Source: Owenia fusiformis
Lineage: Eukaryota > Annelida > Polychaeta > Sabellida > Oweniidae
DNA: 64,000 nucleotides
NCBI GenBank assembly: GCA_903813345.2
Contig: CAIIXF020000008.1
Span: 18,894,822 to 18,958,821 of the forward strand
Direction of reading: 5' to 3'
In this document: piece after piece, positions 2,941 through 41,900 of the stretch
Numbering within the stretch: the first letter of the stretch is position 1
Layout: every line of letters begins with the position of its first letter
Notes under the pieces: model-generated
What the model was told of the DNA's origin: nothing
What the model saw: only the letters and a program-made list of their open reading frames with translations
Database searches by the model: none
Made by a program: the position numbers and the translations under genes

Positions 2941-5900
2941 CTGGAGTGAGAATGTATAAAGAACAACATTAGATACTGTCAAGTAAAAATCATTAATGGT
3001 GTAAAACGTGTCACAGGGCTCGGTGCTTTAATTGATCAAATACATGTATTTATAGCTCATTTGAGGACAAATCGTTGCTCCAAAGCTTCATGAATGCATC
3101 TACAACCCATCACACAGATACTTTTTGTTAATGCTGATTAATAAGTCCTGTAGCATGTATTAGCCCATTGAAGTATAAACAAGGCATTGACAGGTAAAAT
3201 GTCACCACCTGCCATTTGTTACAGACACCAACTACAAAAACATTGTACACCAACCGCCTAACACCATCCATAAAACGTTGGAGACTATAACAATATGTCA
3301 ACAAATTTTGGTGGTGACATAACAATCACTCATTGTATTGTATTTTGTTTACCACCAATGAAGGTGAGCAATACCATGGTATGAAGAAGAGTGTGGTACA
3401 AGCAATGACCTGTTGACTATATTGAATTTTATTACCAGCCAGATAAAATTCATCTTGCTCATGATTATTACTTGTTTGCAAATCAGGAAACAGAGAGCCA
3501 GATAAAGTTCATCTTGCTCATGATTATTACTTGTTTGCAAATCAGGAAACAGAGAGCCAGATAAAGTTCATCTTGCTCATGATTATTACTTGTTTGCAAA
3601 TCAGGAAACAGAGATATGACAAGTAATTTTATGCATCAATGAGAAATATAAAATGGTATGAAATCTTGACCTTCCAAAAAGGCTTGAATTATACATATGG
3701 CCTACAACGGTACAATGTACTTACTTTACCATCAGGACGTGGACAGTAACACTCTGCCTTGCTGGTCAATAAGCTTAAGGCATGGATGTCTTTACCAATA
3801 CCACCACTATTCTGGTTCCAAATTTTGCTCTCTTTCATCTGTGCCAGAGAATCACTAGCACACTCAAGTATACCAGACTCCATCAATCTTTTTATCGAAG
3901 CCCTGGGAAATAATTTAACAGATACAGGTACCTGTATATAAACAAGACACATAGTGAACAATATTGAACTTAAAACCAAAATAGCCACTATGAAATTTAC
4001 ACAATATGCTCAAAACTAATCTGTTCAAGATTTTCATACCATTCTGCCTAGGGATTTATATGGAAATGGGCAGATATGAAAAGTGAGATGCACCACATGC
4101 CTGTCTAGCAGACGACAATACTGGAAAAACTTTACCAAGGCATTAACCTGATAAAATTTCACCTCTTAGTTGCAATTTGCAATCAATGTTAAATGACTCT
4201 GTTCACAAAATATGTTTTCTATATTTGTTTATCAAATATGATCAATTCTGAGAAGTTTACAGAAGATGTCTTGAGGTGAACACTGAAGATTTAGTTCAAA
4301 TATTAATTCCAATTTCAGGTCCCTTTCCTAGGTAACATCATTGTACAGATTTTAATTGCACAACATACATCATTCATCCTCCTAAGCAGGTGTCCAGAAT
4401 CCGTACCTCCTTCTTCCCCCTGCTATAACTTATTTGGAAGCGCCCGATTTAACTGAATCGATTTAAGCCAATCAGATTGCGAGTTCTTAATCGGGGAAAT
4501 GCTAACTGCTTATCGCAGGGGGTAAAAAAAGAAAGAATATATATTGTGGATTTTGAAGCCCTGTGATCGGAGGATGACATTATTAGAAGTGAAATTAATA
4601 TATAACGAGCCACATGATGTGAACGAGATCACGCCATCAAAAAACTTTCAAAATGCCTGCCAGAAAAAATGGCTGCCCAGAAGTTAACCTCTTGAATCCC
4701 AGGTTCTAAAATTGGGTTGAAACCAGGGAATTTTTCATTTTGCCAGCCTTTGACATTTTACTACATGCATAAACAACAGATGATGCTTAATTTAGTGAAA
4801 TTAGTTGGTAGAGATCATTTCTACACATTTTAAAACATTTTTGGTGTAAATTGGATGAAAATTGTCAAAATTAGAGTAATTTCAGTGAAAAATGTTATGA
4901 CGGATTTTCTCGTCAATCAAGAGAAATCTTGTCACTCTGGGTAATCAAGAGGTTAATCAGCTCTAGAGCTTGATATCCTCTATCATGTGTGCGAATTTGG
5001 AGAAAATCTGACAAGCGGTTTTCCTGAAATGGCAATGACAAGAATTTCTGGAATTCCTTCAAAATGGGCACCAGAAAACAAGATGGCCACCCAAAAGGTA
5101 ATCAACTCTAGAACTTGATATCCTCTATCTTGTGTGCGAATTTGGAGAAAATCCGACAAATGGTTTTCCTAAAATGGCGATGACAAAAAAGCGGGCCGAT
5201 CACGATAACGATTACTACGACTATGACGACTATATCCCACCGATGGTGTGCTAAAAAGTTTTCTTACTTGATTTTTTCTGGGATCTGGTTCGGCATGATC
5301 ACTTCTACCATTTTCCTTGAAAATTTGGCACCAATGATTGAAGCACATTTGATTAACATCTGATCTGATGGTTCCATTCGGTCCATACGAGCCATCATCA
5401 TTCCTGCAAATGACCCAAATACAAATATGGCACATCATTTTTAATGCAGCATTTTAAAAGACATAATGATATATAACATGCATTCGTACTCTACAACTAG
5501 AAATCAGCAACTCCAAGCATGGAGTAGCACATTCCAACAAACACTATATTCATGAATCTGTATATGTCACAATGTAATATTTACCATCTACTCTAAACGT
5601 GATTAAATTGGCAGATATTGAAAGACAAATATTTTAGAAATATCAGAATTTCCACTGATTTAAGCACAAATTAGAATTGATTATTTCAACAAAGATACTC
5701 ATAATCAATACCTTTCATTGACTGTGACAGGGCAACATTCCTGAGGTTAACATCTGGTTGAAGTACACAGACTAAGTTGGCTGTTTTAGATGCACCCTCT
5801 AAATTGCCACCTTCCATTATGGTGTGGTCCTCTTCTTCTGAGCTTTGCCCCTGTACAGTAAGTATTCAAAAGTGCAATCTAATATTTTTCCTAAAAGCTG

Positions 5901-8900
5901 AAATATTTTACTTTGATATTCATACTGATATTCATACTGCGCTAGGCAGCGACTACTGTAACTACTTTATACTTTTTAAATTGAATAAATATATAACGAA
6001 ATGAAAAATGATTTAAGTTTTCAAATGAAAGTTTCAAAGTTCAATTAATGGAGTCTCAGTCTATGCATGAACCATATTACATGTACATATGTACAGATTT
6101 TAAAGGGTCTTTCTTGCCCATGTTCCCATTAAATCATAAGCAATTGCTCCGATATGACATCCTCGACAATGACAGAAGTATGTAAACTGAACCAGACATC
6201 TATTGAAGTATGAATATTATATGAACATGGTGTTACTGAACACACTGTATAAGAGGTAATTTTGCCCAATCATTTAATTTACCTACATGTATAGCCTAAT
6301 TTCTGCCAGGTTCGGAAAATTAAATTTCGGAACCATTATCTTCATAATGCTATCTAATGGGAAGTTCCTTGTCATCAGGATAATTAAAATCAGGAAAATG
6401 ATAAAATTTGACCATTCGGCAAATTAACCACTCGGATAGAATATACTGAATTCTGATTTATCACTGATAACCAAATACTGTATTTACATGTATGGGAGGT
6501 ACTGTACATGTACATGATCACATACCAAACTGGATATTTTTGATTTCTGCGTAAAGCGTTCCTTTTTCTTGAGAAAGTTTGGTGGTGGTCCAACAAGGCG
6601 GAAATCTTTAGTATCAGGGTGGCCTTCAGGCACCAAGGTGATTTTTGCATCATGGAACAACTCATGTAAGATCTGTTCACACCAAGCAGGCACTCCATGA
6701 GTCTTCATCTTTAGAAAGCTACAAAACAAAGACATATCGATCAGTGAACAATATTGCACTTTTAGGACAAACATATGTACGTACTTGAACAATGATCAAA
6801 ATAGAATAAAATTTTCGGTCATACATGTACATGTATATTATGTCATAAATCATAAAAGCTATAAGTTTGCCACAATTTTATTTCTTTATGAAGTTACTAA
6901 AAGATTTGGTCACATAAGATTTAACTTGTCTTCCCACAGGATATAGTAGTTACCAAGCTCCGTCCCGACATGCTGCTGATATCTCAGCTCAGCAGGAGCA
7001 TCATCATCATCGAGCTCACAGTACCCTGGGAAGACCGACTGGAAATATCCCATCAGCTTAAGAAAGCCAAATACCAAGATCTGGTAGACGAGGCCATAAC
7101 AAGGGGGTGGCATGCAGTGCAGTACCCAATAGAAGTGGGATGTAGGGGGTTCCCAGCCTCCTCGCTGCGCTACCTTCTATCTCAGCTAGGACTAACACCA
7201 TCCAAGCTGAAGTCGGCAGTTAAGGCAGTAGGTGCTGTGGCAGAGTCCAGCTCACGGTGGCTCTGGCTCAAGAGGAATGACAAGTGGTGTCCTTCAGCGA
7301 GCGATGTTTAAGACCTTACCATCGCTGCCCCACTCAGATTATGCATACAGGCTAAGGGGCGAAATGTGACGATCTGAGACGCCTGCTGATGACGCAGTAA
7401 AGGACACTCACTTAATTTTCCTACGAAGCCATCCACAAGTAGTAGTTCCTTTTTCCGTTTGTAGCGATGCATCGTTGATGTTTATTTGAAATGTATCCTG
7501 ATAATTCAGTGACCATGGGGAAAGGCCCATTGACTTCTGCGAAAGAGCAGATGACAGTTTCGGAAAGACGACAACACAGATGCCAGGGTCAGCACCCCGA
7601 AGCATCTAACTCACAATAGCTACAAGTATTAAAATGAGAGAATGCCCCCAAGCAGACCGAAAGGCGGGGGAGGATGATCTGCACCCGACAGGAAGTATGG
7701 ATTTTGACCAAAGCAGCGAATTACGGACTACAATTAGGACTCAGGAAGACATTGACGTAATAGAAACAAGAAGACGGTGCGGAAGTTGCGGCGGCACTTT
7801 CAAGAACGAGAGAGGGGTGAAAATACACCAAGGGAAAACCAAATGTAAGGAAAAGCTAAAACAACGTCAAGCAGGTCATTCAGCTGAAGCGCGAGCCAAG
7901 GCTGTAGATCCTGCTAATAATTCGGTGAAGGTTTGTAGCCAGGAGACACACCACAGTGCTCCAGACCTTCTAGTTGAAGCTAATCCTCTCATTCAGAGTC
8001 TACCCAGCCCAATTGAACACCTCGTTCAAGGGAGGAAGCCTAGACTAAAGTTACCTGCAGCAACCGACAAGCGATGGATAGAACTCGACGAGGAGCTTGA
8101 CATTATCCTCACAAACACATTACGAGGAGACGCAAAGGGAAAGGTAGAGACTATGACTAGAATCGTTTACGAAACTTGTGAAGAGAAGTTTGGAGTCAGT
8201 GAAACATCAGAACGAAAGCACCATGCAGGGCCAAGTAGAAGACAGCAGGAGATAGCTTCCCTTCGGAAAGAGCGGCGCAGCCTTCAGCGTCGATGGAAAG
8301 CTTCATCACTGGCCAGCGAAAGAGATGGAATTAGAGAACTCCAGCAGATTCTTCACAAGAGACTTCTTCATCTTCGTAAGGTAGAGTCTCTCAGGAAAAG
8401 ACAACGAGAGAAGCATAGAACAAGGAAGGCCTTCTTTGAAAACCCATACCAGTTCACTTCAGATTTACTAGGGAAGCCAAAGAGTGGCCGTCTTTCCAGC
8501 ACACAGCAGGAAGTGGAAGCAAGTATTGCAGCAGCACACAGTGACCCAGACAGAGAACTGCCATTAGGCGAGTTCCCGATTGACATCCCACCAGATATAC
8601 CAACTGCACCATTTGACCAGTCAGATTTCAAGCTTGACGAGGTACGAGCTATTGTCAAAAAGGCAAGAGCAGCTTCAGCACCGGGCCCAACAGGTGTGAC
8701 ATATAGGGTGTACAAGAACTGCCCGAAACTGCTCAAACGTCTATGGCGATTGCTAAGAAGCATCTGGATTAAGAAAGACCTGCCAAGGAGTTGGGCGTTG
8801 GCTGAAGGTTGCTTTGTTCCTAAAGAGTTGAAGTCTGAAGGGCTGAACCAGTTCAGGGAGATTTCATTACTGGACGTGGAAGGGAAGATCTTGTGGGCTA

Positions 8901-11900
8901 TTGTGGCCAAGCGACTTACCTCTTTTCTACTGGTCAACCAGTTTATCGACCCAAGCATCCAGAAAGGTGGCATCTCAGGACACTCAGGCTGCCTCGAACA
9001 CACGGCTGCTATAAGTCAACTAGTGAAGGAAGCCAAGAAGGGGAACAAGGCCCTGTCAGTAGTTTGGTTGGACCTCGCTAAGGCCTACCCAAGTGTCCCT
9101 CACCAACTGATATTGGAGGCTTTAGCTCACTACCATGTACCAAATGATGTAATCAACCTGACAATGGGCCACATGAACTCTTTGATGATGCGCTTCACTG
9201 TTGGCAAGTTCACCACCAACTGGCAAAGGCTGGAAAAAGGCATAATGGCCGGATGCACTGTATCAGTAGTCCTCTTCATTACAGCAATGAACCTACTGCT
9301 CAAGGCAGGTACAATGCAGTGTAAGGGTCCAAAAGCAAATGATGGCACAAAACACCCACCATGCAGAGCTTTCATGGATGACATCACAGTTATGACAGTC
9401 TCAGCAGTAGGTGCCAGATGGATTTTGTCAGCACTAGAAAGAATGGCAAACTGGGCCCGAATGCAGTTTAAACCCACCAAATCAAGAAGCATGGTACTGG
9501 TAGATGGGAAGCTTTCTCCCATACAGTTTAAAATCCAGGGGGAGCTAATACCTACAGTACAAGACCAAAGAATCAGATGCCTCGGGAAGAACTATGACAG
9601 GACCTTACGAGATGTGAACAATACAGCTGAAGTGGCAAGGGATTTAGACAAGTGGCTAAGAGCCATTGATTCAAGTCACCTGCTAGGGCGTTTCAAGGTG
9701 TGGTGCTTTCAGTATGGCATTATTCCTCGGCTGCAATGGCCTTTCCAGATGTATGATATACCGTTATCATCTGTCCAGGCCATGGAGAAAACATGCAGCA
9801 AGCACCTTTGGAAATGGCTAGGCTTGCCCCCTTCCTTCAGCTCTGTCAATTTGTACAGCTCTACTTCCAAACTCTCCTTACCAGTGACATCAGTTGTGGA
9901 GGAGTTCAAGGCCACCAAAGTTAGAACAGTCACGACTCTAGAACAATCAAAAGATCCCAAAGCCCGGAAGACTGGTGAAAGCATTACTTGCGGAAGAGTG
10001 TGGAAACCACAGGATGCTGCAGCAGAAGCCAGCGACCGACTAAGTCACCAACAGATTGTTGGAACTGTTTGCAAGGGAAGACTTGGGCTAGGGCACTATG
10101 GTCCACATCAGCTGACCAGCAATAGTAGGAGAACCCAGATTACGAAACAGATACGAAACAAGGCAGAGGAAGACAGACTGGTAAAGGCTGTAAGTCTTGC
10201 TAAGCAAGGAAGTTGGACCAACTGGGAACCTGCTCTGAAGCGTCCCCTGAAATGGAAAGACATCTGGCCCATGGACCAAGGAAGACTCAGCTTCTTATTA
10301 AGAGCCTTCTCTGACCTGCTACCATCTCCATCAAACCTCCGATGTTGGGGCAAGGAAGAGACAGCTAACTGCCCTCAGTGTATGGCTGCTGATTGTACAC
10401 TTAACCATATTCTCAGCAGCTGCCCTAAAGCCCTAGGTGACGGAAGATATAGATGGCGACACGACAGGGTCCTCCAAGAGGTAGCCAAGTGGATAGACCA
10501 GCAAAGACTTTCCCACAACACCAGTAGGGGCAATGTAAGACCAAGACTCATTAAGTTTGTCAAAGAAGGCAGCAAAGCCCATCAGAAGCCATCTCTGCCT
10601 GTACTCCAGCCCAACACTCTCACCAAGGCAACAGACTGGACTTTAAGAACTGACCTCTTCCAAAAACTTGTCTTCCCACAGGATATAGTAGTTACCAAGC
10701 TCCGTCCCGACATGCTGCTGATATCTCAGCTCAGCAGGAGCATCATCATCATCGAGCTCACAGTACCCTGGGAAGACCGACTGGAAATATCCCATCAGCT
10801 TAAGAAAGCCAAATACCAAGATCTGGTAGACGAGGCCATAACAAGGGGGTGGCATGCAGTGCAGTACCCAATAGAAGTGGGATGTAGGGGGTTCCCAGCC
10901 TCCTCGCTGCGCTACCTTCTATCTCAGCTAGGACTAACACCATCCAAGCTGAAGTCGGCAGTTAAGGCAGTAGGTGCTGTGGCAGAGTCCAGCTCACGGT
11001 GGCTCTGGCTCAAGAGGAATGACAAGTGGTGTCCTTCAGCGAGCGATGTTTAAGACCTTACCATCGCTGCCCCACTCAGATTATGCATACAGGCTAAGGG
11101 GCGAAATGTGACGATCTGAGACGCCTGCTGATGACGCAGTAAAGGACACTCACTTAATTTTCCTACGAAGCCATCCACAAGTAGTAGTTCCTTTTTCCGT
11201 TTGTAGCGATGCATCGTTGATGTTTATTTGAAAAAAAAAAAATGGGGTGTCTTTTCATGTCAATGTAAAAGACTGTATCTGAAACATTTGAAATAAAGTG
11301 AATTGAATTGAATTTAATGGAGTTCCATACTCATCTAGTTTTTGAGGTATCTTGGCAACCTCTAGTAGTTGGCAGGCTATGGCAGTAATGTGCTCCTCAT
11401 CAAGCGGTTTTAGACGAATCGTCAGTGAGGTCTCACTGTGGAGAACCTCCCAGAATGCAACTGGCTGTTGTGACTTTTTCGTCTCTGTGAATGGTCTCAT
11501 ACCTATGTAATAATACAAAATACAAGTACCGTACATATAGTTTTTTATTATTTGAAACAAAAATTATGCCATTGCTCATGTTATGTCTCAATCAAAATAA
11601 GTTTCATTGAAATTGTCTGTTGAGAATATGTGACCTCGAGACAAACTTCTCCATGTACCCAACGAGGATATATAAAGAAAGATAATGCCCCGATTTCCAA
11701 GATTAGCCAATGTAGTTATTTAAAATATATAGGTTTGGGTACTTCAATGCATCCTGATTTTAACAAGCATACAAACACCCCTATATCTTGGAATATTTTT
11801 CTAGATTTCATAAAAGGACACACTAAATAAACATTTAACTTTATATCGTAAAATGGTTAATCTTACTGAGGACCACAAGAGTCTTATCATCCCTCCCCAT

Positions 11901-17900: not shown

Positions 17901-20900
17901 ACTTTACATGTTTCACTGTATTTTATTCCCTTGCAAATGTTCAATTTATTCATTCCCTAGCAACAAGGTGTAAACAATCCTGTGGAAACATCAGTAACAT
18001 ACCTCCTACAAAGTTGAGATTCATACCATGAAATTAATCTCTAAAGCATTTTCATATTTTGAAAGCAACACCAAGTTTGATAACTTCGGCATATCAAATG
18101 TTAAAGCACCTGATTGCAAACATGCAGAGGAAACCCTGCTACTATTTTAGATATATCTTTAAAATGATTGAAAATACCCTGGGAACATCTGCTAGTACAC
18201 TTTATCCTCTGAGAAATTACATCATTTAAAGTTTGAGATTCAACCAATCAGAGAGCTACAACTGGTTGATTGACTCAACAAGTTTAGATGTATGTTAGTA
18301 AGCGTATCATGTGATGAAATACGAATATGAAGTATATAATACTTATCCCATTGATTTTTCAGTACTAAATGAGTATTTGTATAGTACTAAATTAGCACTC
18401 TGGCAATTTCACGTTCATTAGCTCAAAGCATTTTGAAAATGAGCACCAATAGGTCAAATCTCTTGAAGATGATTTTAAATGCCAAGTTAGACCAACACAA
18501 TGCCAACACAGACCTTTCTAACTGAATTAACAAATACCTAAATTGGTCTACCTAACATTTTAAATGCTGCCTCATCAGAATAAAGTAGGATATCTGTCTT
18601 ACTTTAATAATGAAAATGGTTAGCAAAATAGTCACTTTTCCTCATTGTCTAAATGATTCTCTAACTTCTATGAATCCCCTTAGAAAAATATCATTCTTGC
18701 CAAGTTTAAACTAAGAATTAACATGCAAAATGTCACCACCTGCCAATTGTTACAGATGTCGACCACCATACACCTACTGCTGTCCCCGAAAAAGTTGGAA
18801 AATTAATAACAATGTCATCACTTCTTGTGAATTAAGAGATAGGAAACAGTAGTATACATGTAAATAGTATATGAAAATATGTGGTATATGTATGTAAAGC
18901 CTCGAGTTGAAATCAAAGAAAGGGAGCTTTAATTATATTACATCTTCTGCATGCTTCATATCATGGATAAGTAGGGTTGACATCTACTACATCTAAAAAA
19001 TAAACAAGGTTGTGGGGCCCCTTAACAGCTACAGAGAAGATCATTATACCAAGGAACTGATCCACTTGGTGGTTTAGGTAAAAGTACATTGTATGGACAG
19101 CTTTTTACTAACTTTGGATGGATTCTTACTCTATTTAGAAATTAGAATTACTTATAATGATGAGTAAGATTTGAGATGAACTGTATTTTAAAGCTCATTT
19201 AATTCTGAACGCATCACTATCTTTTAATCTCAACAACTGAATATTCTACCAGCAATGGAATGTTTCCAGTCAAATAATATAGATGGGATTCTTGTGATTG
19301 TTGTACCATTGTAAAGAGATACAAAACTGAAGGAATACACTAGTTTAACACTGTAATTACAATTAACAGTCGGATTAATTCAAGTTAACTCCCATCATAA
19401 CTAATTGCAATGCTGTGGTATCAAGATCACGCCCTGTGAGCAAGAAGATAAAAGCTTGCTATCCTGATATACAGGTATAATGAATCATCCTATCTAGCCA
19501 GAAACCATGACATTAATGGAGTAGAGTATTGTGAATCCCATATTCAGCAGAGTAAAACAACACATATAGTACTCCCATTTACATATAGAAATATTTATTT
19601 ATTTATTTAGCCTCCAATACTGAAGAATAGTTTGACAATTAAAACAATCTTACACTATACCTTATGCTAATTAGACAATTACAATATCATGAATTATACA
19701 TGTATACATGGGCAAAATTTAGACCCAAAATATCAATGGATACATTGGTAAATCAGCTAAAAAATCTTCTGTGGTACATAATTGATACACTCTTACATGA
19801 AATAATCAAAACATGATCCCAATTTTTCATTGGAAACTCCATGCCTAAAATAATGTTATATAATACCTCACATGAAAGTATCTTAAATGTAGGATTTTCC
19901 TTAATCAAATTTTCAATCATAATCTTTCTGATATCAACATAATTATCACAACCCATAATAAAATGATAAAGATCCTCTAATGAGTTATTATTGCATTTCT
20001 TACATTCCCTATTTTCTCTAGGTAAACCATGGTTGTTAATTTCTAAATTATGTATACCACATAGCAACTTAATCATCATATTACATTTTTGCTTAAGTTC
20101 AGGATGTTTAAGTCCTAAGTAATACCAGATAGAAGGAATGTCAACATGCAACTGTACAGTTCTAAAATCTTGAAGTTGAATACTCATTGATAAAGATTGT
20201 CTCCAACTATTAAATTCAAAATCCCTAACATTGTTCTTACATATTTTTTTCCAAAGAAACTTTGACATATTTATACAACCATTGTACATGAAGCTCACAA
20301 CATTGTCCAACAATTTATATTTATTTAAAATAGTAATATACTCTTTAGTAATACCACCTGCTTGATGATTCACTAAACATTCAAACACTCTAAATATAAA
20401 AATGTTTCTATAAATATTACTGGCACCCAAGGACAATATGTTGAAACAGAACATTAGCTTACATAGCTCAATATTATATGATATTCCTCTCCACCCCAAT
20501 AATGCCAAGCATGCATCATTTGGTGTATTCTGAGGTAAATTCTGAATAGATTTACACATGTGTTTATGAGTTTTTTCATAAAGTTCAACCTCCTGCTTAT
20601 TAAAAGATCTAACTTCTGCTCCATATAGCATTTTAGGTATCATTACAGATTGGTAAACCTTAGAAAGTATTAGGGGGTTTAAACCATCATTCCTCATTCT
20701 GGCTCCTACACATGCATAAAAATTACATCTTGCATCACTTATTGTAGCATTAACATTCCTCAACTTATCAGAATTATTATTTGCATAAACATTAACACCA
20801 AGATGCTTATATGAATTCTCCTCATTAATTACAAGGTTTTCAATTGTAATGTTGGTACCTTCAGAGTGTTGTCTTTTCTTTTTCTGACTTTTTGTCTCTC

Positions 20901-23900
20901 CAAAAACCATAATTGCGCTCTTGGAAGCATTAAATTGAAATCGCCACTTATTGGCATAATTATTAGCAAGTTTTAATTGATCAATTAATTTACTCTTGTG
21001 TATAGCTAGAATTGCTAGATCATCAGCATAACACACACAACTCACATTTAATGATCCAACTTTACATGAGTTATTATTTGCAAGCAAGTTAATAAGTGGA
21101 TTTATAAATAAAAGGTACAAATACATGGAGATCTTTCCACCTTGTTTTAAACCCTGTCTATTAACAAACCATTCAGAATTTGCACCATGTATGAAAACAG
21201 AGTCCATAGAGTTTATATAAGATTGACGCAAAATTCTCCAAAATTTCCCTTTAATACCAGCGTCATATATTTGAGCAAATAACCCATCAATCCACACCGT
21301 GTCGTATGCCTTCTTTGTGTCTAAAAATGCAGCAACAATCTTACTTCCATTTTCAACATTATGAGCTATAGCCTCTTGAAGAAGAAGGGATGAGTGAAGA
21401 GAACTACATTTAATCTTATTAGCACCCTGTAACTCTGATATTGTCTGATAACTATGACCATACCGCAATTCCCTCTGAAGTAAAATCTCATCATATAGTT
21501 TACACAATGATGATTGAAGTGTTATACGTCTGTAACTATCTTTATCAAGTTTCTTCTTTTTTCCTCCTTTATATACTGGAATTATAACACCCCGTTTAAA
21601 GTTCTTAGGTGAATATTCTTCATTAATCAACATATTAAATAGAAATGCTATAGTTTTAAAAGTGTGATCACCAGCATACAAAAATTGTTCATATGGTATG
21701 CCATCATAACCTGGTGCCTTGGCCTTAGGTAACTTATAACAGGATTCCCTGACTTCATCTACAGTTATAACATTCTGAAATTGTGGAGAATCATGACCAG
21801 TTTCATCCTCTATACACTTTATTCTCTGTTCAATTGCACATTTAAAAGTATCATCATATATATTGTTCATTTGGTCAGGTGAAGCTAACTTCTCAAAATA
21901 TTGTTTCCATGACTCCCTAACCTCTTCAGCATCAGTCAATAAAATTCCTTCTTCATCAAGTATAACATCAGGTAATCTTGACATTTTCTTGCCTTTGTTT
22001 AATAAATACCACAGGTCTTTTTGTGAAACACTAGCATCTTCAATTGTGATATCAATTTGTTTGTTATATTCATACTCAGCTTGCCTTAAAGCTTTTCTTA
22101 AAGCCTTTTTAGACTCTTTCATTTTAATCCAAAGAACATTATTGGATTCCCTTGGTTTTCCCGCTGCACACCAGTTATCATAAGCAATCTTTTTATCCTT
22201 TGTTATCTGGGGTAATAGTGGGTTACATTTCCAGTAGGGTTTACCATTCTTTTTCCTGAACCGTATTTTAGGTATAGATAAATTGGCAGCTGAATTAAAA
22301 TTTTTAGTTATACTTTCCATAAACTCCTCTATTTCACTAGGTGAGAATTTTCTTTTATCAAATGTGTTGTCATTATCTATAGATTTCTCTTCATTCAGCC
22401 TCTTAAATAAAGATTCCACTAAAGGAAAATAATTGTCATTTATAAAATCTTTAGACACCTTATTCCATGCAAGTTTAGAGGACTGCATAACATTCTCAGA
22501 ATTTTGGAAATTGCACTTTAATTCCAAAATTACTCTCACTGGCAAATGATCAGATGTATTAACAGGATTCTCTATATGCGAAACTTCAACTATTTGACTG
22601 TTCATATTATGTGGTATTAAAATATGATCAATACAAGAAACTGTTCCATTATATCCAGTGTATGTATACCTAGGACCTTTAAGTGTATGTATTGAGCTCA
22701 CACTGTTCATTTCATTCCTGTGAGTAAATTCAGATAACAGTGATCCTTGTGATTGAGGGTTACCACTATTTAAAGCACGAGGATCACCATTTAGATCCCC
22801 AATTATAATGCATCTCTGATGCATATCATTAGTTTCAATAATATTATCAATGATATCTAAGGCATTTGAATATGCAATACCATTGTCATTATCCTTAGAT
22901 GGTAAATAAACATTAAAAATGCACAATTTCTCACTATTCCCTTGTATTGTTAATTCTATACCACAAATTCTCTTATGTAGTACATGATTTACATCAAAAT
23001 GTAAATTAATATCACTTATTTGAATACAATGATTTAAAGATTTCCTCCAAAAAATAGCAATGCCACCACTCGCTCTACCAATCTTAAATACTCGCTTTGC
23101 ACACAGACTTAAACATTCAAAATCCGGGTGAAATGTACTTATTTCATTACATAAACCAGCATTGTATACCCAGTGCTCTGAAATTCCTAGAATATCTACA
23201 GTTGATAATAAATTGTACAGGAATGGTTTACATGTTGAAAATCCATGTACATTAAATGTTGAAATCCTTATTCCATTTACATTCTCCATAGTTCTGTTAG
23301 ATTCTTGTATACTATTATAACATAAAAATAACAATAAAGAAATTACTATTGTAACTGTGCTTAACATTAAAATGAGTTACTGGATATACACATCTACATA
23401 CAAGCTTAATAGCCTTTATCAGACCACCAATCTCTCTGATCATTGGTGTTTGAATAATATTGATCATCATGCCTTTCATCTTTGTACCAATAATCTTCAT
23501 CATAGTCATCATGATTGTCATAACACCTCTCACTTTCCTCATCATTATAATACCTATAGTCTCTATTTGCAAATCTGTTACTATTTCCACTAGCAACATG
23601 CCTACTTCTGTATGACTTTGATTCATACCCAATTTTATATTGAATATCATTTTGAGACCCTTTCAGCGTTGTCTCCTCGCCATCATCATGCTTTTGATAT
23701 CTGAACGCTTTTGCCTGTTGAAGCTTCTTGTTGGTTTTAGTTATCCATTTTTTACATTGGATATTTTGCGGCCAAAAGGATTCAGACATCATTTTTGATG
23801 AATCACCATCAGAGACAGAGACTTTGACGCCTACACTATTACGCTTATAACGGACCCTTACTACATCTGCACTTATAATTTTAACACCTTTGGTGCTACA

Positions 23901-26900
23901 ATATTTCTCCACTTTACATATTATATCTTCATTTTTCATTTCAGATGAAGCTTCCACATTGGATACATACATTCGAACACTCTTCTGACTGTTAACACCT
24001 GTTAGAATACTGTTTTCATTCTTATTAACCCTTTTCTTTTCTTGTCTTTTCTGTCTTTTTGATTTCACCATTTGAAAATCATCCTTTGAACTGGATGATA
24101 TTGCTTCAGCATATGACATATTATTTTGGTCACTAATCCCAGAGTTCATTGGAGAAAGTTTACCAGATGCAACCATAGTGCTATTATTGGATGGTTTAAA
24201 GTTCTCTTTTTCACACTTCTCCTCATCAATTGTAATCATCACTTTAGAATCATTCATTTTCATCCTAATTTCATCAATTTCTAGCATCATCAACTTCTCT
24301 AAAGATTCAACTTTTGTTTCCAGAGTTTTGATAATGCAGTCTTTCTCTTGAAGGTCCTTCTTGAACTTACGCTCAATGGAATCCAATGTTCGTTCCCATT
24401 TACGTTCAAGCTCATTCATTTCATTGGTCCTCTTCATATACTGGGCAAATTTCATATGCAGATCATTCAGTTCAACTGTATTTATCTGAGAATTTAACTC
24501 AACCTGAGAATTATCATGCATCAGATTCATTTCATCATTTGTGTCTGAATGATCAAGTTGGCTTCCCCCAACATTACAAGGATTAGACACAGGAACAGGG
24601 CCCTTTTGTGGAGTAGATGATATGGACTTCTGTTGACTGGGTTGGCATGGTTGAATTATCTTTGAAATTATCTGTCTAATTTCATACAGTGGACCCCCGT
24701 TTATAAAATTGTTCAGAGTGTAACAGTCTTCTGCAACAAATGCTTTGGCTGTAAAAATTAATAATTTAGATTCAAGATTGTGTATATAGGCACACCGTTC
24801 TTGGAAATCATTATTATTTTACTAGCTATACTGAGATACTCAAACAAAGAATAAACGATCTGAAGCTCAATGGATAGATTCATATTGAATTAAAGTATGC
24901 CTGTAACATTTAAGTGGGAACAGAAATTAGTTGGACAAGTAATACAAAATATTAAAACAATGTCATAACGAGTATTGCATATAAGAAAAGAATGAATCAA
25001 AATAATGCAAGTCTGAATAATGCAAGCTTCGGCAATGCAAGTCTAATAAATGCGAGATTCAATAATGCAAGTCTGATAAACGTGAGTTTCAGCAATGCAA
25101 GTCTGAACAATGCCAGCTCCAGCATTGCAAGTCTGAACAATATGCGCCTACTGGACTACAACAATACTTATCTGAACAACAGCTTCAACGCAAACAAAAG
25201 TCTACTGGGCAAATTGGACTGCTTAGATTACAGTGACTACTTGGACTACAAGGCAAATAAAAGTTGCTTTTTGTACTTTTACATTGTGATATTAATACTA
25301 CAAATAGTTGCACTTCTATTTGGATTGATAGGAAACATTTTAGTACTGATAGTTCTGTCAAAAGATAAAACAAAAGGCACACGTGTGTTTCTGCTAAAAT
25401 CCCTAGCTGTCACAGACTTACTCTTTTTGATGTGTTATACCATATTTACATTGCCAGTTGGTATAAACATTGATTTTGACTTAAATCTTTATATCAATCT
25501 GAAAGTCGGTTTCTTCAGAGCTGGAATATTATTAACAAACACCACTTGGACACTGGCAATATGGATGGTTGTCTTGGTGACAGTTGACCGATATATTCAC
25601 ATCGCAAAACCACTTAAAGCTCCAAGTATTGTTACCATCAAACGTATGAGAATATCAGTGGGAGTTTTGACAATTTCATCCGTTATATTAAACCTTCCAA
25701 TTTCCCTTTGTGTTGGTTTCTGTGAAAATTCACTACCTGACATTTTTGGCATCATCTTGAAATACACTGGACCTGTGATCACAGTTTCAATACTAAACTT
25801 TAAACTGGTTCAGTCTGTCAGACGATCAAAGAAGAATATTAAACAACTGAGTGAAGCTGCGGTCGAGGACAGGAAACAAACTTTAACAATGATATCTATT
25901 GTGTCTGTGTTCCTCTTGTGTTCTCTTAGTCTACTCATGAATGAAATAATTATCAAAATACAATTTTCTAACTCAAATTCCATATATATCTTAGATCATG
26001 TTTATCACTTTACAATGAGAGTAGCACACTTTTTGACAGTTTGTAATTCATCCTGTAATGTTATATTTTATTATATCTTTGGGAAAAAATTTAAGAGAGA
26101 ATTGAAAATAATTCTGCTGTGTAAACTAGCAACTTAAATATGCATGAAATAGAATTAACAATAAATATTGATCATTTAAATTATTAATATTTAAAAATTT
26201 GTATTGCCAAGGGTTCCCCAAGTAAAGTAAATCCTGTATATATATAGACTAATATGAACATTGTTTTGCCGAGAAAAAAACATTCATTGTTGGTAGGTGC
26301 TCACTACAGGCTCTACAGAGAGAGTACTTTATACAGAAGTCAGTAGAGTAAGTATAGAGGAGGGGTGTCCAATAGAGATATGTTCACTAATATAAAGAGA
26401 GTTGTTCGCTAAGACAGGTTTTACTAAAAAGTACAGTCTGACTTGACTTTGATATAAACTGTTGTTCAATAGCTAAACTCTTCTCTGATGAAGTTTATCA
26501 TGTTTAACATGTTTTCCTCATTTAAACTTTAAACAGATCTCTTCATGTGATTATCTGTGGAATGATATCACAAGGAACTCTACCCTTTGACAATCATATC
26601 ATTAGTACATTGCCCTCTAACTAGGACAGAGACCTCTTCATTTGATTATCTGTAGAATGATATCACAGGGATCATGATACCATAAGTACATTGTCCTCTA
26701 ACTAGGACTGATAGATCATTTATTGTAAAAAACGTCCCCCAACTTCGGCAATGCACTGTATATTTATATGTATTAAATTGGAATAAAATAGGAAAAAAAT
26801 GTGATTATCTGCTGAATGATATGCATCTTCTTTCTTTCTTTCATCTTTCTATTATTAATATTTCAATAGAGCTCTTCATGTGATTATCTGCGGAATGATG

Positions 26901-35900: not shown

Positions 35901-38900
35901 AACTACCTTAATGATATCAAATAGCAGTTGATTCACTTTGAGATAAATACCAATTCCTCTTTTCCCAATACTCAACTATGCTATGCTTCAAAGAACATTT
36001 AAATCTTTTATCTTTGGCTTTGGCATTTGCGGATGACCAAAAGAATTCAACCAGTTGTGGTATGATTCCAGCTATAACTGCTGCAAGAGCTTGAACAACA
36101 ACTGACAACTGAGCTTGCCTGTTATATGCCTGAACCACTGATATGCTTGAATATACAAATGATCCTATGACTGATAGGTACACCCCAGAAAGGAAGACTT
36201 GAACTCTTAAAGGAAGATGCTTCTCCACTAAATGATCAAATACGTGTTGATTCACACCGGGAATATTTTCATAATAAGTGATGTATACTTCAGTATTGTT
36301 AACTGGTTTTGATTTTTCAAGATGTTCTGAAATGTGAATAGTCTCATATAATAGGTCAATATAGCCATGATTGATATGCTTGATTGCTTTCCAAACATAC
36401 AAGATAATGGTTGTGTACATGATAGTATAAGTGACTGCCTCAGAGGGGAAGGCCACAATGCCTATAAGTGTAAAGGAAATAGTCTGGTAGATATATGTCA
36501 TAGAGACAGTATAGATAGTATAGAAGCAGAACAGAACATAGAAGAAAACAATGAAAATGAACAACCTCATAGTCCAAACCAAAATCCAATTCAGAAAAAC
36601 ATTTTGCCTATTAACTCTTTTCCAAATAAACCGGTCCACACAGTATGCAATATAATTAGCAAACAAATTCTTAGTCAAGAGCCAAATTGGAACTCCATAG
36701 AAAATAATACATACAACAAGATCAAAAACAATGACTATTATACATAGTAGCCAAATTGGAATCAGGAGTATGAAAAACATGAATTTAGGAAGACAATTTG
36801 GCCTTTTTCTGACTAAACCTCGCAATCTCTCAATCCATGTATGAGTAAAAAGTTTCCAAAATTTCCAGTTGAGAAGCATATATAATCTTGCTCGCATTGA
36901 TGTTGCAAACATAGACCATCCAACTTTCATTGATATGAACTCTAGTCCCCCTAGGTTCTCAATAATGGCAGGGTCCAGGCATTGAAGCAACTTTGATCCA
37001 TTGGCATCGTCTAAGCCTGCACAAAGTATTGCTGCAATGTTATTTGGGATGCAGACTATTGTTCCAGCCATTATAAAAAACAAGGAGTATATAACATAGG
37101 GTCCTCCTAAAAAGTACTTCCAGTTACGACTACTGGCTTGAAATCCAAATGGTATTGCATTAAATCCAACTGGGATATCTTGCTCAATGCGTCTATGTAC
37201 AGCTCCATGTTTATACTTGAAGTACACAATCATTTGAATATAAATGAAGATTGGAGCAATCACAATCAAAAGAAAGATTTTTGATAGACGTCCCATAAGC
37301 AGTGATTGTGTTGTAGAGAATTTCCTAAAACACCATTTTAATATGCTCATTAATGTTATAGGTGGCTCATCTCCAAGATAAAGTATATATTCATCAGATG
37401 GAACCTGTTCATCATCATTCACCAACTCCTTTATTTCTTCATAATCTTTCCGATTGTTGTTGTTAATCCACTTATCAAGTTTAATTGCTTTGATTTCATT
37501 GTCTGATCTTCCGTCAAATACATATAGCAACACAGGGCTGTAGCACAATAGAAAACCTCCACAGATTTGAAGAAATATCAACCAACGAGTTTGTTCATAT
37601 GTTTCACTAAATTGATATGGGTTTTCCGGTTCACTGCACTGAAAGCCACTAGAATCTCTATTTACTCCAATAACATGTACAATAATGTTATAAAATTGTG
37701 TTAATTTGAATTTAATGGCGTAGCACCAAACTGTTGTTTCTTGATGGTCAGTTGCATCTGTTAAATTACGCAGCATGATAAGTAATTGTTCCATTGTGTC
37801 TGATGCTCCCCATTCAGCTTCACAGCCATCTGGACTCACTTCAACATTGACAGAGAGATAGTCATACACGTACCAGGAAAGGAATCCAAGTGATAACACA
37901 TCAAAGTCAAATGGATAAAATAATATTGGGTATCCTGCACCTGCTTCTCCTTTGAAAGTCCATGTAAGAAAGTCAGGGAACAAAAACATGCTGTCTTTAG
38001 CAATTGATGGCACTTGAGAAAAGTTAACTTTAACATACATAAAGTTTATCTTCTTTGCATTGACTAAATGTTGAAATTCAATTGCAGAATTTTGAGCAAT
38101 TTTAAAATTACACAGTTGAGTTCCTTCTTCACCAAGCTTATTGACAACTTTCTCAGATTTAACATCATCTGTAGCATCATCCTTTTCATTAAAAGTTTCT
38201 GTACTTTCTCCAACAATACAAAGTGCCATAAGAAATACTATGACAATTCTAGCACATTTGGCCATTGTTTTATGCTACACTGAAAATTCTAAGATAACTC
38301 CTCAAAACTGATTGAATATTTCTAAAATGAGAAGTAAATGAATTGCTACGTGTTTAAACTGCTAAACAAGGAAGTAATAATTCAAGTTTACTGTATTAGA
38401 TAATCTTCTAATCTAGACTGGTCGTCATCTCTTATCAAATACAAACTAACAAGAGCTTTTATCTTTTTGACCTTGCAGACAAACAAGGGTAATCTTATAG
38501 CGACCACCAACTTACATAAATCATGTCTAGAGGTGCTTGATAGCCAATAGTCAATAAAGATTAATAAACGTTCACATACAGGGTGTCCCGAAAGAATGGG
38601 GGCCCCCTAGGCAGATATATACCAATGTCTCCATAGTATGTTTCATATATCATGATCTGCCAAGTATCACCGTTCAACTCACAAATGGGAAAAAGTTACA
38701 GGCATTTCAAAATATAGTGTTTGGCAAAAATTAAAGTCAGTTTTGAACCAAAATTATAGTCTATCCGAAATTGTTCATTGGTTAGGTGTATGATTAAATA
38801 GATTAAAATTCCTCAATTCACTAACCTTTTATAGCATTACTATCTAGCTTTCGACAACACCTGTTGCCTTTCTCAAGATGTCTGAATTTGGCGGGAAACT

Positions 38901-41900
38901 GGTAGATTTGACCTTGACTTGATCTTTGACCTAGCAACCTCAAGTAGACTCGGGGAAACCTTATATCCTAAGTCTCTGTTAAGTTCAGCACCGCACCCAC
39001 CACGCATTTGGAAGAGATACGTGGATGACACTTGGGTAGTTATACAGGAAGAGTTCGTCCAAGAGTTCACAGACTTTATCAATTCAGTAGACTCAGATAT
39101 AAAATTCACAACTGAAGCTTTAAAAGATAGGAAGTTGCCATTTTTAGATACAGTCACTAAAATTCAGGAGGATAGATCTTTGTCCATTAGTGTGTATAGA
39201 AAACCCACACACACTGATTTATACTTAAAATTTGATTCACATCACCCACTCTCAACAAAGAAAGGAATCGTTAAGACTTTACACAAGAGAGCCAATGAAA
39301 TTATTACAAATCCCGCAGAGCTAGAAGCAGAGAAAACCCATATTAATAAAGCATTAGCCCGGTGTGGTTATCCATCTTGGATGTTAAACCAAGCTCAGAA
39401 TCACACAGTTAGGCAACAGGATCCTGCTAGAGACAGTGAAGATAGGGATATTAAGGTAGTTCTTCCCTATGTGAGTTCGATCGCTCCCAAACTTCAACGC
39501 GTTTTTCAAGACATTGGAGTTAAGACTTGTTTCAAATCAGTGAAAACGATCAAACAAGCGTTAGTTGCACCCAAAGACCCCACTCCCAAGGACCTTAAGT
39601 CCGGAGTCATATATGAAATCCAGTGCTCAGATTGTGATAAGAAGTATATAGGAGAGACAGGGAGAGCCATAGGAACTAGAATAAAAGAACACAGAGACGC
39701 CTTAAGAATTAACCCAGACAAGTCAGCAATCGCTCAACATTCATTTGATGAAGCGCATAAGATAAACTTGGATTATAGAATTATTGACTCAGAGTCTAAA
39801 TACTTTGATAGAAAGATAAAGGAAGCGATACATATTCATAAATATAAACCTGAACTTAACAGAGACTTAGGATATAAGGTTTCCCCGAGTCTACTTGAGG
39901 TTGCTAGGTCAAAGATCAAGTCAAGGTCAAATCTACCAGTTTCCCGCCAAATTCAGACATCTTGAGAAAGGCAACAGGTGTTGTCGAAAGCTAGATAGTA
40001 ATGCTATAAAAGGTTAGTGAATTGAGGAATTTTAATCTATTTAAAATTATAGTCGTTGTGTCTCCCTTAGCCATGTTAACGGCAGGAATGCTGTCCATAT
40101 ATGACCTTGAATGTGCTTCAAATAGGGATTTGGCATTTTGTAATCCTCATAAAAATCTATTTAAGGCATTCTAGAAGAGCTTCCTTGGAGTATCTACCCT
40201 CAACTTCCTCTTTCTAGAACTCAATATCCATCCTTTTGTCGACAATAGCACCCATATTTTCGGTCACATTAAGGTCTGGGCTGTTTCCAGGAGACTGAAA
40301 TGAACTATATTTTTGGCCAAACACTAAGTTTTGAAATGCCTGTAACTTTTTACCATTTGTGAGTTGAACCATGATATTTGGCAAATCAATGTAAGTTTGG
40401 ATAAGCTTTAAAATGATATATGACACATACTATGAAGACGTTGGTATATGTCTGCCTAAGGGGGCCCCATACTTTCGGGACACCCTGTAGATTCGAACAT
40501 TTCGAAATATGCCTACTTTAAATCCAATTGCAAACAAAATAGACTTTTTAGCATGTATTGCCTCCTTCAAAACGCCCAAGATACATCCACTCACATCTAC
40601 ATCTATTTGCAGTGCATGACAAAATTTGTACTCCAAAGTCAAATAACAGGCTTGTGCTAGGTTTAGCATTCCAAAATAATTAAGGTAGTAGAAAAAACAA
40701 AGTCAGCGACCCCAAGTTTTTTTGTTTGATTATAAAGCACAATTATGTCCTGGTCATTTATACACTTAATCATTAAGTTATTTAAGGCCTCCAGGAAAAC
40801 AACCACTTTAATTGTGGCTGTTTTTACAGTTAGCATAGCTACCCAGAGTATACAGCCATTATTTGTGTCTGTGTACATGTTAATTATGGAATGTACTAAA
40901 AACCCTTCGACCCTGCAACCTACGACTTACAGCGTGTCAAGAATTTTTGAAATATATTTTTATAAAAACCCTTCGACCTTCTAGATATTTCTCAGTCCAT
41001 ATGAAGTTGCTGGAAATATTACTTTGTGTATAGAACTTAAGAATCTGTCCCAAGAGAGTTAAAGATATTTAAAGCTGGACTTCGATCGGAGCCGGCGATA
41101 TGATTTTGGAAAGGTTTCTAAATTAAGAACGTGACGTCACTTCCGAATCATAGCATTCAAAATAAGTAGCGTTTAATTACTTCCACCATTCATAAAATCA
41201 CGGTGGTCTAGCGGAAGAATGCTCGCTTAGCACGCGGGAGGCCCGGGTTCGAATCCCGCATTTGCCTTTTTATTTTTTTTAACTTAATGATTGTTCTTTG
41301 ACATTACGCAGATAATTTTTTTTTTATTTACATAAACTTTATATTAGAGCTTGAAAATGTAAAAACAATATATGTCAACATATTGCGTTTTGGAGCGATG
41401 TGCAGGTTTAATGTATTCAAGCACATTCGAATGTGAACGTTTCTTACCTCCTCAGTAAAAATATTTGTGCTTTTCCCAACACATTGTAACAGTGGCGCAT
41501 CGTGCATATTTTCAGGAGGTCAAATTTTTTATATAGTTTAAAGAGAACCGTCTTTTGATTTTATCAACTTTGATTCATTCTGGATTTGTATAGTTAAGAA
41601 TCTAATGCCAACTAAATAAGTAGATTCTTTGTTTTGCATCCTACAAAATCCAAAGCATGCAAGGGTACAAGGAAAATAAACACAAACCGTCAAGAAAAAG
41701 CTTGCAAGCTAGGTCATATCAGGTTCGTATAACCAGCTTTTGCCAATTTAAGTTTTTCAAAAGGATCAAGGGGTGAACATTTGACAATTTTCAAGTGGCC
41801 CAGAAATATTGAAAATGCTCAGAATCGTGAAAAATTGTACTGATTTTGAGAGAATATTTGGCCAATGGAGTGGTCCACTTGAACCCACGAATGTCCCCCC

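Follow-up and report, generated by a model that had tools for sequence, protein, structure and literature searches.

The window analysed here is a stretch of 64,000 nucleotides (nt) of the Owenia fusiformis genome (GenBank assembly GCA_903813345.2, contig CAIIXF020000008.1), corresponding to C8:18894822-18958821 in the 498-Mb, 525-contig assembly. It holds a putative R2/Hero-like long interspersed nuclear element (LINE), which is directly preceded by a truncated copy of its own 3' end. We will use the term "partial tandem" for this arrangement and "joint" for the point at which the two copies meet. The element belongs to the first of six related families, named A to F below. Its features, in window coordinates, are the following.

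6923..7491, + strand: 5'-truncated extra copy of the 3' end of the element (endonuclease coding end and 3' untranslated region, UTR), lying upstream and resembling a pseudo-long terminal repeat (pseudo-LTR)
7492..11233, + strand: full unit of 3742 nt, whose start at 7492 recurs at loci L010 and L009
7492..7594, + strand: conserved structured 5' RNA with four hairpin helices, several with GAAAG-type loops
7610..11053, + strand: single open reading frame (ORF), 1147 codons from stop to stop and 1139 from the ATG at 7634
7778..7846, + strand: N-terminal zinc-finger-like motif C-x2-C-x12-H-x5-C, read from the translation
8843..9586, + strand: reverse transcriptase (RT) domain, Pfam RVT_1 at 8.1e-20, with phmmer matches to R2 proteins
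10283..10432, + strand: zinc-knuckle region between RT and endonuclease, from a zf-RVT match and C/H residues in the translation
10700..10984, + strand: putative restriction-like endonuclease (REL) region (RPD...IELTVPWED...KAKYQDL), from the motif and a weak collinear R2 stretch
11222..11233, + strand: 3'-terminal motif GTTTATTTGAAA, compared with families B-F
11234..11242, + strand: run of nine extra A at the outer 3' end, missing at the inner joint
11244..11318, + strand: 3' flank within another repeat, 75 nt, 99% identical at C6:21703302-21703376

The element and its partial tandem

Both 3' copies finish in GAAA, at 7491 and at 11233, and the full unit begins at 7492 without a spacer. When 6700-11500 was compared with the window by BLASTN, 6923-7491 and 10665-11233 were identical at 569 of 569 positions, free of gaps. 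A first-pass annotation of this DNA had described a 569-bp 3' fragment running without spacer into a full element with an uninterrupted 1,139-codon frame, and had read the identical overlap as the mark of a young insertion. The joint at 7491/7492 and the frame, counted from the ATG at 7634, are confirmed; the 3' ends are not set apart by numerous fixed differences, and the absence of any difference in 569 positions upholds a recent origin. In the window and at L010 the A run stands at the outer 3' end and is lacking at the inner joint. Terminal motifs similar to GTTTATTTGAAA, containing GTTTA, are present in families B-F. Target-site duplications were sought by eye, and one of ~4 nt (AAAC) was seen at L039 and perhaps one of 3-4 nt at L010, while none was clear at the window or L040.

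The RT is of R2 type, as a phmmer comparison with R2 proteins in PDB gives a best E of 1.1e-23 over residues 344-784. The zinc-knuckle region matches Pfam zf-RVT at an E of 0.0016, which falls short of the Pfam cut-off. In the endonuclease region, a weak stretch collinear with two R2 proteins (residues 1031-1124, not significant alone) accompanies the motif RPD..ELTVPWED..KYQDL, which we take to be that of the C-terminal restriction-like endonuclease. Neither a GIY-YIG endonuclease nor an integrase was found among the Pfam matches of the element protein at E up to 1. The label R2/Hero-like comes from these protein matches and the motif, the HERO placement being tentative. On this evidence, the element is best read as an R2/Hero-like LINE, with RT and a putative C-terminal REL, in a Penelope-like or HeT-A-like partial tandem.

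In R2 elements, translation starts at a non-AUG codon and the ORF has no conserved ATG. The same is likely for the present families, because the ATG at 7634 is missing in the relatives compared and family B has no ATG ahead of its zinc finger. In families A, B and C the frame is alike from a GCT AC(A/G) codon pair located just 3' of the structured 5' RNA. Family D has this pair and an open frame, with a protein that is not clearly alike, and in the copies A2 and B2 the frame breaks further downstream.

A structured 5' RNA is also a feature of R2. The fold z is -1.95 for 7492-7640 and -3.32 for L009. In an alignment of ten sequences from families A-E, 21 pairs make up the four helices, and 91.7% of the cells are paired. 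Six pairs show changes on both sides, a number reached in 1 of 500 shuffles; the covariation score is equalled in 0 of 500 and the number of pair types in 18 of 500, to be read with the fact that the structure came from the same alignment that was scored and that relatedness can inflate the shuffle control. Shifting the pairing partners by 1-3 columns lowers the score from 0.24 to 0.11 or less. A search of Rfam gave nothing at gathering level in five sources, the 5' RNA included. It is possible that this conserved multi-hairpin RNA acts in processing or in non-AUG translation.

Recurrence and LTR-like identity of the two ends

The 5' ends of the genome were counted with a motif of 22 bases of the 5' RNA, allowing up to two mismatches. 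The motif was built from families that had already been identified, and more distant ones fall outside this census. It occurs at 23 sites, while its reversed control occurs at none. All 23 sites were read, and 22 have 3'-end sequence of their own kind directly upstream (3 in family A, 7 in B, 7 in C, 1 in E and 4 in F). Three family D sites missed by the motif also have an upstream 3' end (3 of 3), in one case of just 48 nt. Overall, 25 of 26 5' ends are directly preceded by a 3' end of their own kind, and the view of the tandem as a single, isolated event was not borne out by the genome search. At the remaining site, C151, the upstream similarity covers 40 columns at 67.5%; it is not significant and was not counted as positive.

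A unit start matching that at 7492 is found at L010 (100% identical over the first 95 nt) and at L009 (~75%), in each case directly after a 3' end. L010, a family A copy on C9, has an upstream piece of 780 nt and a unit 99.6% identical to that of the window. L009, on C120, is a ~75% relative within this family that has the same joint and an upstream piece of ~244 nt. Family B is ~61% identical to A and has a different 3' UTR, and its 5' end again follows its own 3' end. Its frames measure 1154 (L039) and 1202 (L040) codons from stop to stop; the upstream pieces are 1875 and 599 nt at these two loci and ~865, 1318, 1398 and 1471 nt at four more. The single family E locus has 90 nt upstream at 84% identity to the 3' end of family B. 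In family F the upstream pieces are ~470, 640, 850 and at least 1180 nt long and hold endonuclease coding sequence of 75 to ~300 residues.

DNA searches with joint queries scored the best candidates, up to 40, and give counts that are lower bounds. With a 440-nt query across the family B joint, seven loci cross the joint among the best 40 of 67 candidates; one locus, C12:86741, begins within the unit, and the other 32 rows cover the 3' side only, some of them being the outer 3' ends of tandem copies. With a family A joint query, three loci cross the joint among the best 40 of 74 candidates. The position of the joint is constant within each family, and no extra bases occur beyond the ordinary divergence of copies. 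The upstream piece was measured at 21 loci; its length lies between 48 and 1875 nt and is different at each of them. No rRNA match was found in the window, L009, L010, L039 or L040, and the flanks differ among the window, L010, L039 and L040, which does not agree with a fixed 28S rDNA site. The annotation of an intact REL-type LINE outside ribosomal DNA (rDNA) holds. Based on these observations, the partial tandem seems to be the usual long form of the six families, E being represented by one locus.

Each upstream piece was compared with the 3' end of its own copy and with the 3' ends of other copies. Nine copies from five families show 0-4 mismatches between the upstream piece and their own 3' end, and in seven of these nine the 3' ends of other copies differ at 6-83 sites. 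The mismatches are as follows.

Family A, window: 0/569 to own 3' end; not informative for the contrast of own and other
Family B, C4: 1/1875 to own 3' end; not informative for the contrast of own and other
Family B, C8: own 1/598 (1/599 over the full piece); others 7 (for each of four copies)
Family C, C9: own 2/399; 53-54 in six others
Family D, C7b: own 2/490 plus 7 gap positions; others 12 and 17
Family D, C7a: own 1/508; others 6 and 16
Family F, C2a: own 1/639; others 18 and 65
Family F, C2b: own 4/748 plus 14 gap positions; others 19 and 83
Family F, C9: own 0/781; others 76 and 82

The seven sites that set the family B copy C8 apart are carried by both ends of each copy; with C2 as outgroup, the derived state appears to be in C8 at four of them and in the other copies at three. 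Some copies are young and all alike, and give no information on this point (C4, C11, C12 and C4b in family B; C12, C9b and C8 in family C). The two ends of the seven informative copies had one source at insertion or were converted later. Since the upstream pieces match their own 3' end and differ from those of other copies, a single insertion probably produced both ends, as happens in LTR elements.

Several related sequences were noted during these searches. At L011 (2897-8258), an LTR-type element whose 852-bp direct repeats are 99.8% identical interrupts a family A copy; the coordinates of the interrupted copy overlap by 7 bases. At L010, an insert of ~2.1 kb (3470-5583) with inverted ends (CCCTTAAGAAAAAAGCCATGG...), probably a DNA transposon, lies within the 5' RNA of the full copy. 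Family B 3' ends that are 97-100% alike were found on the small contigs C383, C325, C75, C65 and C468 and in a cluster at C4:16527397-16632153; they are likely a segmental or satellite array carrying a truncated copy. L026-L028, of a multi-copy family at 73%, have the order endonuclease-RT-zinc knuckle. This order at first suggested a permuted protein, but frames in L026 and L027 do not exceed 153 codons and the family sits in a 5.4-kb repeat, so that it was taken for a decayed derivative. This multi-copy repeat (~96% alike; also at C10:13432600 and C9:23131964) lacks a long frame; it looks like a fossil and would agree with a deletion spanning a head-to-tail joint. A search of viral contigs for relatives gave one stretch that fitted a pattern, and none was confirmed.

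Other long frames are present in the window itself. On the - strand, 19753-24818 holds a 1207-codon frame with RT and APE-type endonuclease and an adjoining 470-codon frame with no Pfam match, likely another LINE with two ORFs. A 393-codon frame at 24956-26137 (+) encodes a rhodopsin-family seven-transmembrane receptor with pentapeptide-like repeats at its N-terminal end (tandem repeat). A 359-codon frame at 38886-39965 (+) has a sub-threshold GIY-YIG match (E 0.00055) and is possibly a Penelope-type fragment.

Origin of the joint

The observations to be accounted for are the seamless joint, its recurrence, the variable truncation upstream and the LTR-like identity within a copy. They argue that the partial tandem is very probably regenerated in a single event. 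For the way in which this happens we favour, with a probability of about 0.5, an RNA template that is continuous across the joint, either a circular or a head-to-tail element RNA. Target-primed reverse transcription would begin at the 3' end of the unit and copy the whole unit. It would then cross the 5' end of the unit into 3'-end sequence and halt at varied points, all within a single insertion. The upstream piece would supply promoter sequence, as do the pseudo-LTRs of HeT-A or Penelope, and such a borrowed promoter would let the long copy be transcribed away from rDNA.

The main alternative is end-to-end template jumping, in which a unit-length RNA is copied to its 5' end and the RT jumps to the 3' end of a second RNA, followed by a random stop. 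This, too, would give the correct order, ends made alike in one event and truncation at varying points. Template jumping is reported for R2 proteins in vitro, and with endonuclease-dead R2 proteins in cells head-to-tail tandem repeats are described as the major class of transgene 3' junctions, possibly from tandem template copying (PMC11371274). On the other hand, jumping would have to be nearly complete in efficiency, as at most one run-off-like product (C151) occurs among 26 5' ends, and high in precision, as the joints read without added bases; moreover, the A run of the outer ends in family A is lacking at its inner joints. A linear RNA of unit length, once copied to its end, should leave copies at the unit start. 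Five copies stop within the first 130 nt of the unit (~+20, +71, +80, +126 and +129) with no 3' end upstream, the row C12:5280782 (a sixth family B copy, not read) starts at +91, and others end at -48 to -126 relative to the unit start. No copy among those read ends exactly at the unit start, unless C151 is one. The absence of a pile-up at this point, together with the constant joints and the family A inner joint without an A run, leads us to prefer the continuous template. We regard jumping as quite possible, if short of even odds.

Other explanations are less able to accommodate the comparison of ends. If the tandem were inherited, transcription would start in the upstream piece and the joint would be copied on, in the manner of HeT-A, for which an LTR-like arrangement with promoters located in the 3' UTR has been described (PMC5537684), and the ends would be kept alike by gene conversion or by LTR-like, homology-guided strand transfer. 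This accounts for the constant joints. However, family B copies differing at 0-1 in 598 nt have upstream pieces of 1318-1875 nt, and inter-copy differences are common to both ends up to ~50 nt (B), ~16 nt (C) and ~9 nt (F) from the joint, meaning that any separately inherited part is short. Inheritance of this kind is unlikely. The first-pass annotation had proposed that the junction arose by template jumping or by repeated insertion at one site, and the former stands as one of two live options. The latter, in which a new element would have landed behind an older, truncated copy at its 3' end, has a parallel in R1 arrays, in which the target duplication serves as the site for another element (PMC2718515). 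It is disfavoured to the point of being very improbable: upstream pieces are closer to their own copy than to the others (0/781 against 76 and 82 in the family F copy C9), and the window joint has neither an A run nor target sequence, whereas R1 tandems keep 14 bp of target (PMC2718515). An assembly artefact is hardly credible, given that the arrangement, truncated at different points, is common to 25 5' ends from several diverged families.

Several observations weigh against the favoured account as a whole. No two of the 23 motif sites lie one unit apart, so that a full genomic dimer was not seen. In 6800-11400 there is no Rfam ribozyme at E up to 10, the search returning just three weak unrelated matches (E 3-9.7), and no hammerhead or hepatitis delta virus fold was convincing by eye at the joint. 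A partial tandem has one joint, and a unit-length circle would need a further 3' cut. Furthermore, after making a full-length cDNA, R2 proteins are reported to jump to additional 3' UTR RNAs (PMC11371274), and such jumping would give head-to-tail joints without circles. The site C151 may be a 5' end with no upstream piece. The family C copies C11, C6 and C2 are no closer to their assigned 3' ends than to others; these assigned ends are ~4.6-10 kb away and may belong to other copies. Finally, the 48-nt piece of the family D copy C8 has 1 mismatch to its own 3' end and 0/45 to that of C7a.

Comparison with known systems

The present families share with R2/HERO-type LINEs a single ORF, an R2-matching RT, zinc motifs and a putative C-terminal restriction-like endonuclease motif, and differ from them in the lack of an rRNA match, the differing flanks and the usual partial tandem with LTR-like identity. 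By comparison, a partial tandem of one full and one 5'-truncated copy has been described in Penelope-like elements (PMC3846280, PMC11167929), and the direct partial tandem with a pseudo-LTR at 25 of 26 5' ends is the likeness here. Penelope-like elements have a telomerase-like RT, a GIY-YIG endonuclease and often hammerhead ribozymes, in contrast to the R2-like RT, the REL motif and the absence of a ribozyme match in the present element. HeT-A has been called LTR-retrotransposon-like because the 3' UTR of the preceding element contains promoter sequence (PMC5537684). In HeT-A and TART, too, a 5' end is preceded by the 3' end of another element, but this is so in Drosophila telomeric arrays, whereas the present copies occupy many chromosome positions and carry an REL motif.

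Head-to-tail R-type LINEs are also known from R1 arrays in rDNA, which are thought to come from repeated insertion; there, unlike here, a 14-bp target duplication separates the copies (PMC2718515). For metazoan retrozymes, tandem copies have been proposed to derive from circular RNA templates (PMC7229834), but these elements are short, non-autonomous and hammerhead-based. The near-identical ends within a copy and their divergence between copies, seen in the seven informative copies, resemble LTR retrotransposons, from which the present elements differ by the absence of fixed LTR boundaries (21 of 21 lengths differ) and of an integrase match. A regular partial tandem in REL LINEs did not appear in the titles and abstract openings of the open-access matches listed, which is no proof of absence, and the word "tandem" does not occur in the main text of PMC7650587. 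What seems to be new is that R2/Hero-like LINEs, when long, usually take a Penelope-like or HeT-A-like form, the arrangement itself being known elsewhere.

As a tentative extension, these families may represent an REL LINE lineage that replicates through circular or concatemeric RNA and in which every long insertion receives regenerated LTR-like ends. R2-type proteins are under development as gene-insertion tools, where head-to-tail products of template jumping are side products. A natural relative of R2 seems to use such head-to-tail read-on as its usual form, with LTR-like ends regenerated at insertion. These families provide a sequence-defined system for how terminal repeats arise in target-primed retroelements, and they bear on how such LINEs obtain a promoter when located outside rDNA. 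If the template is indeed a circular or concatemeric RNA, a target-primed element would have come to terminal repeats by an independent route.

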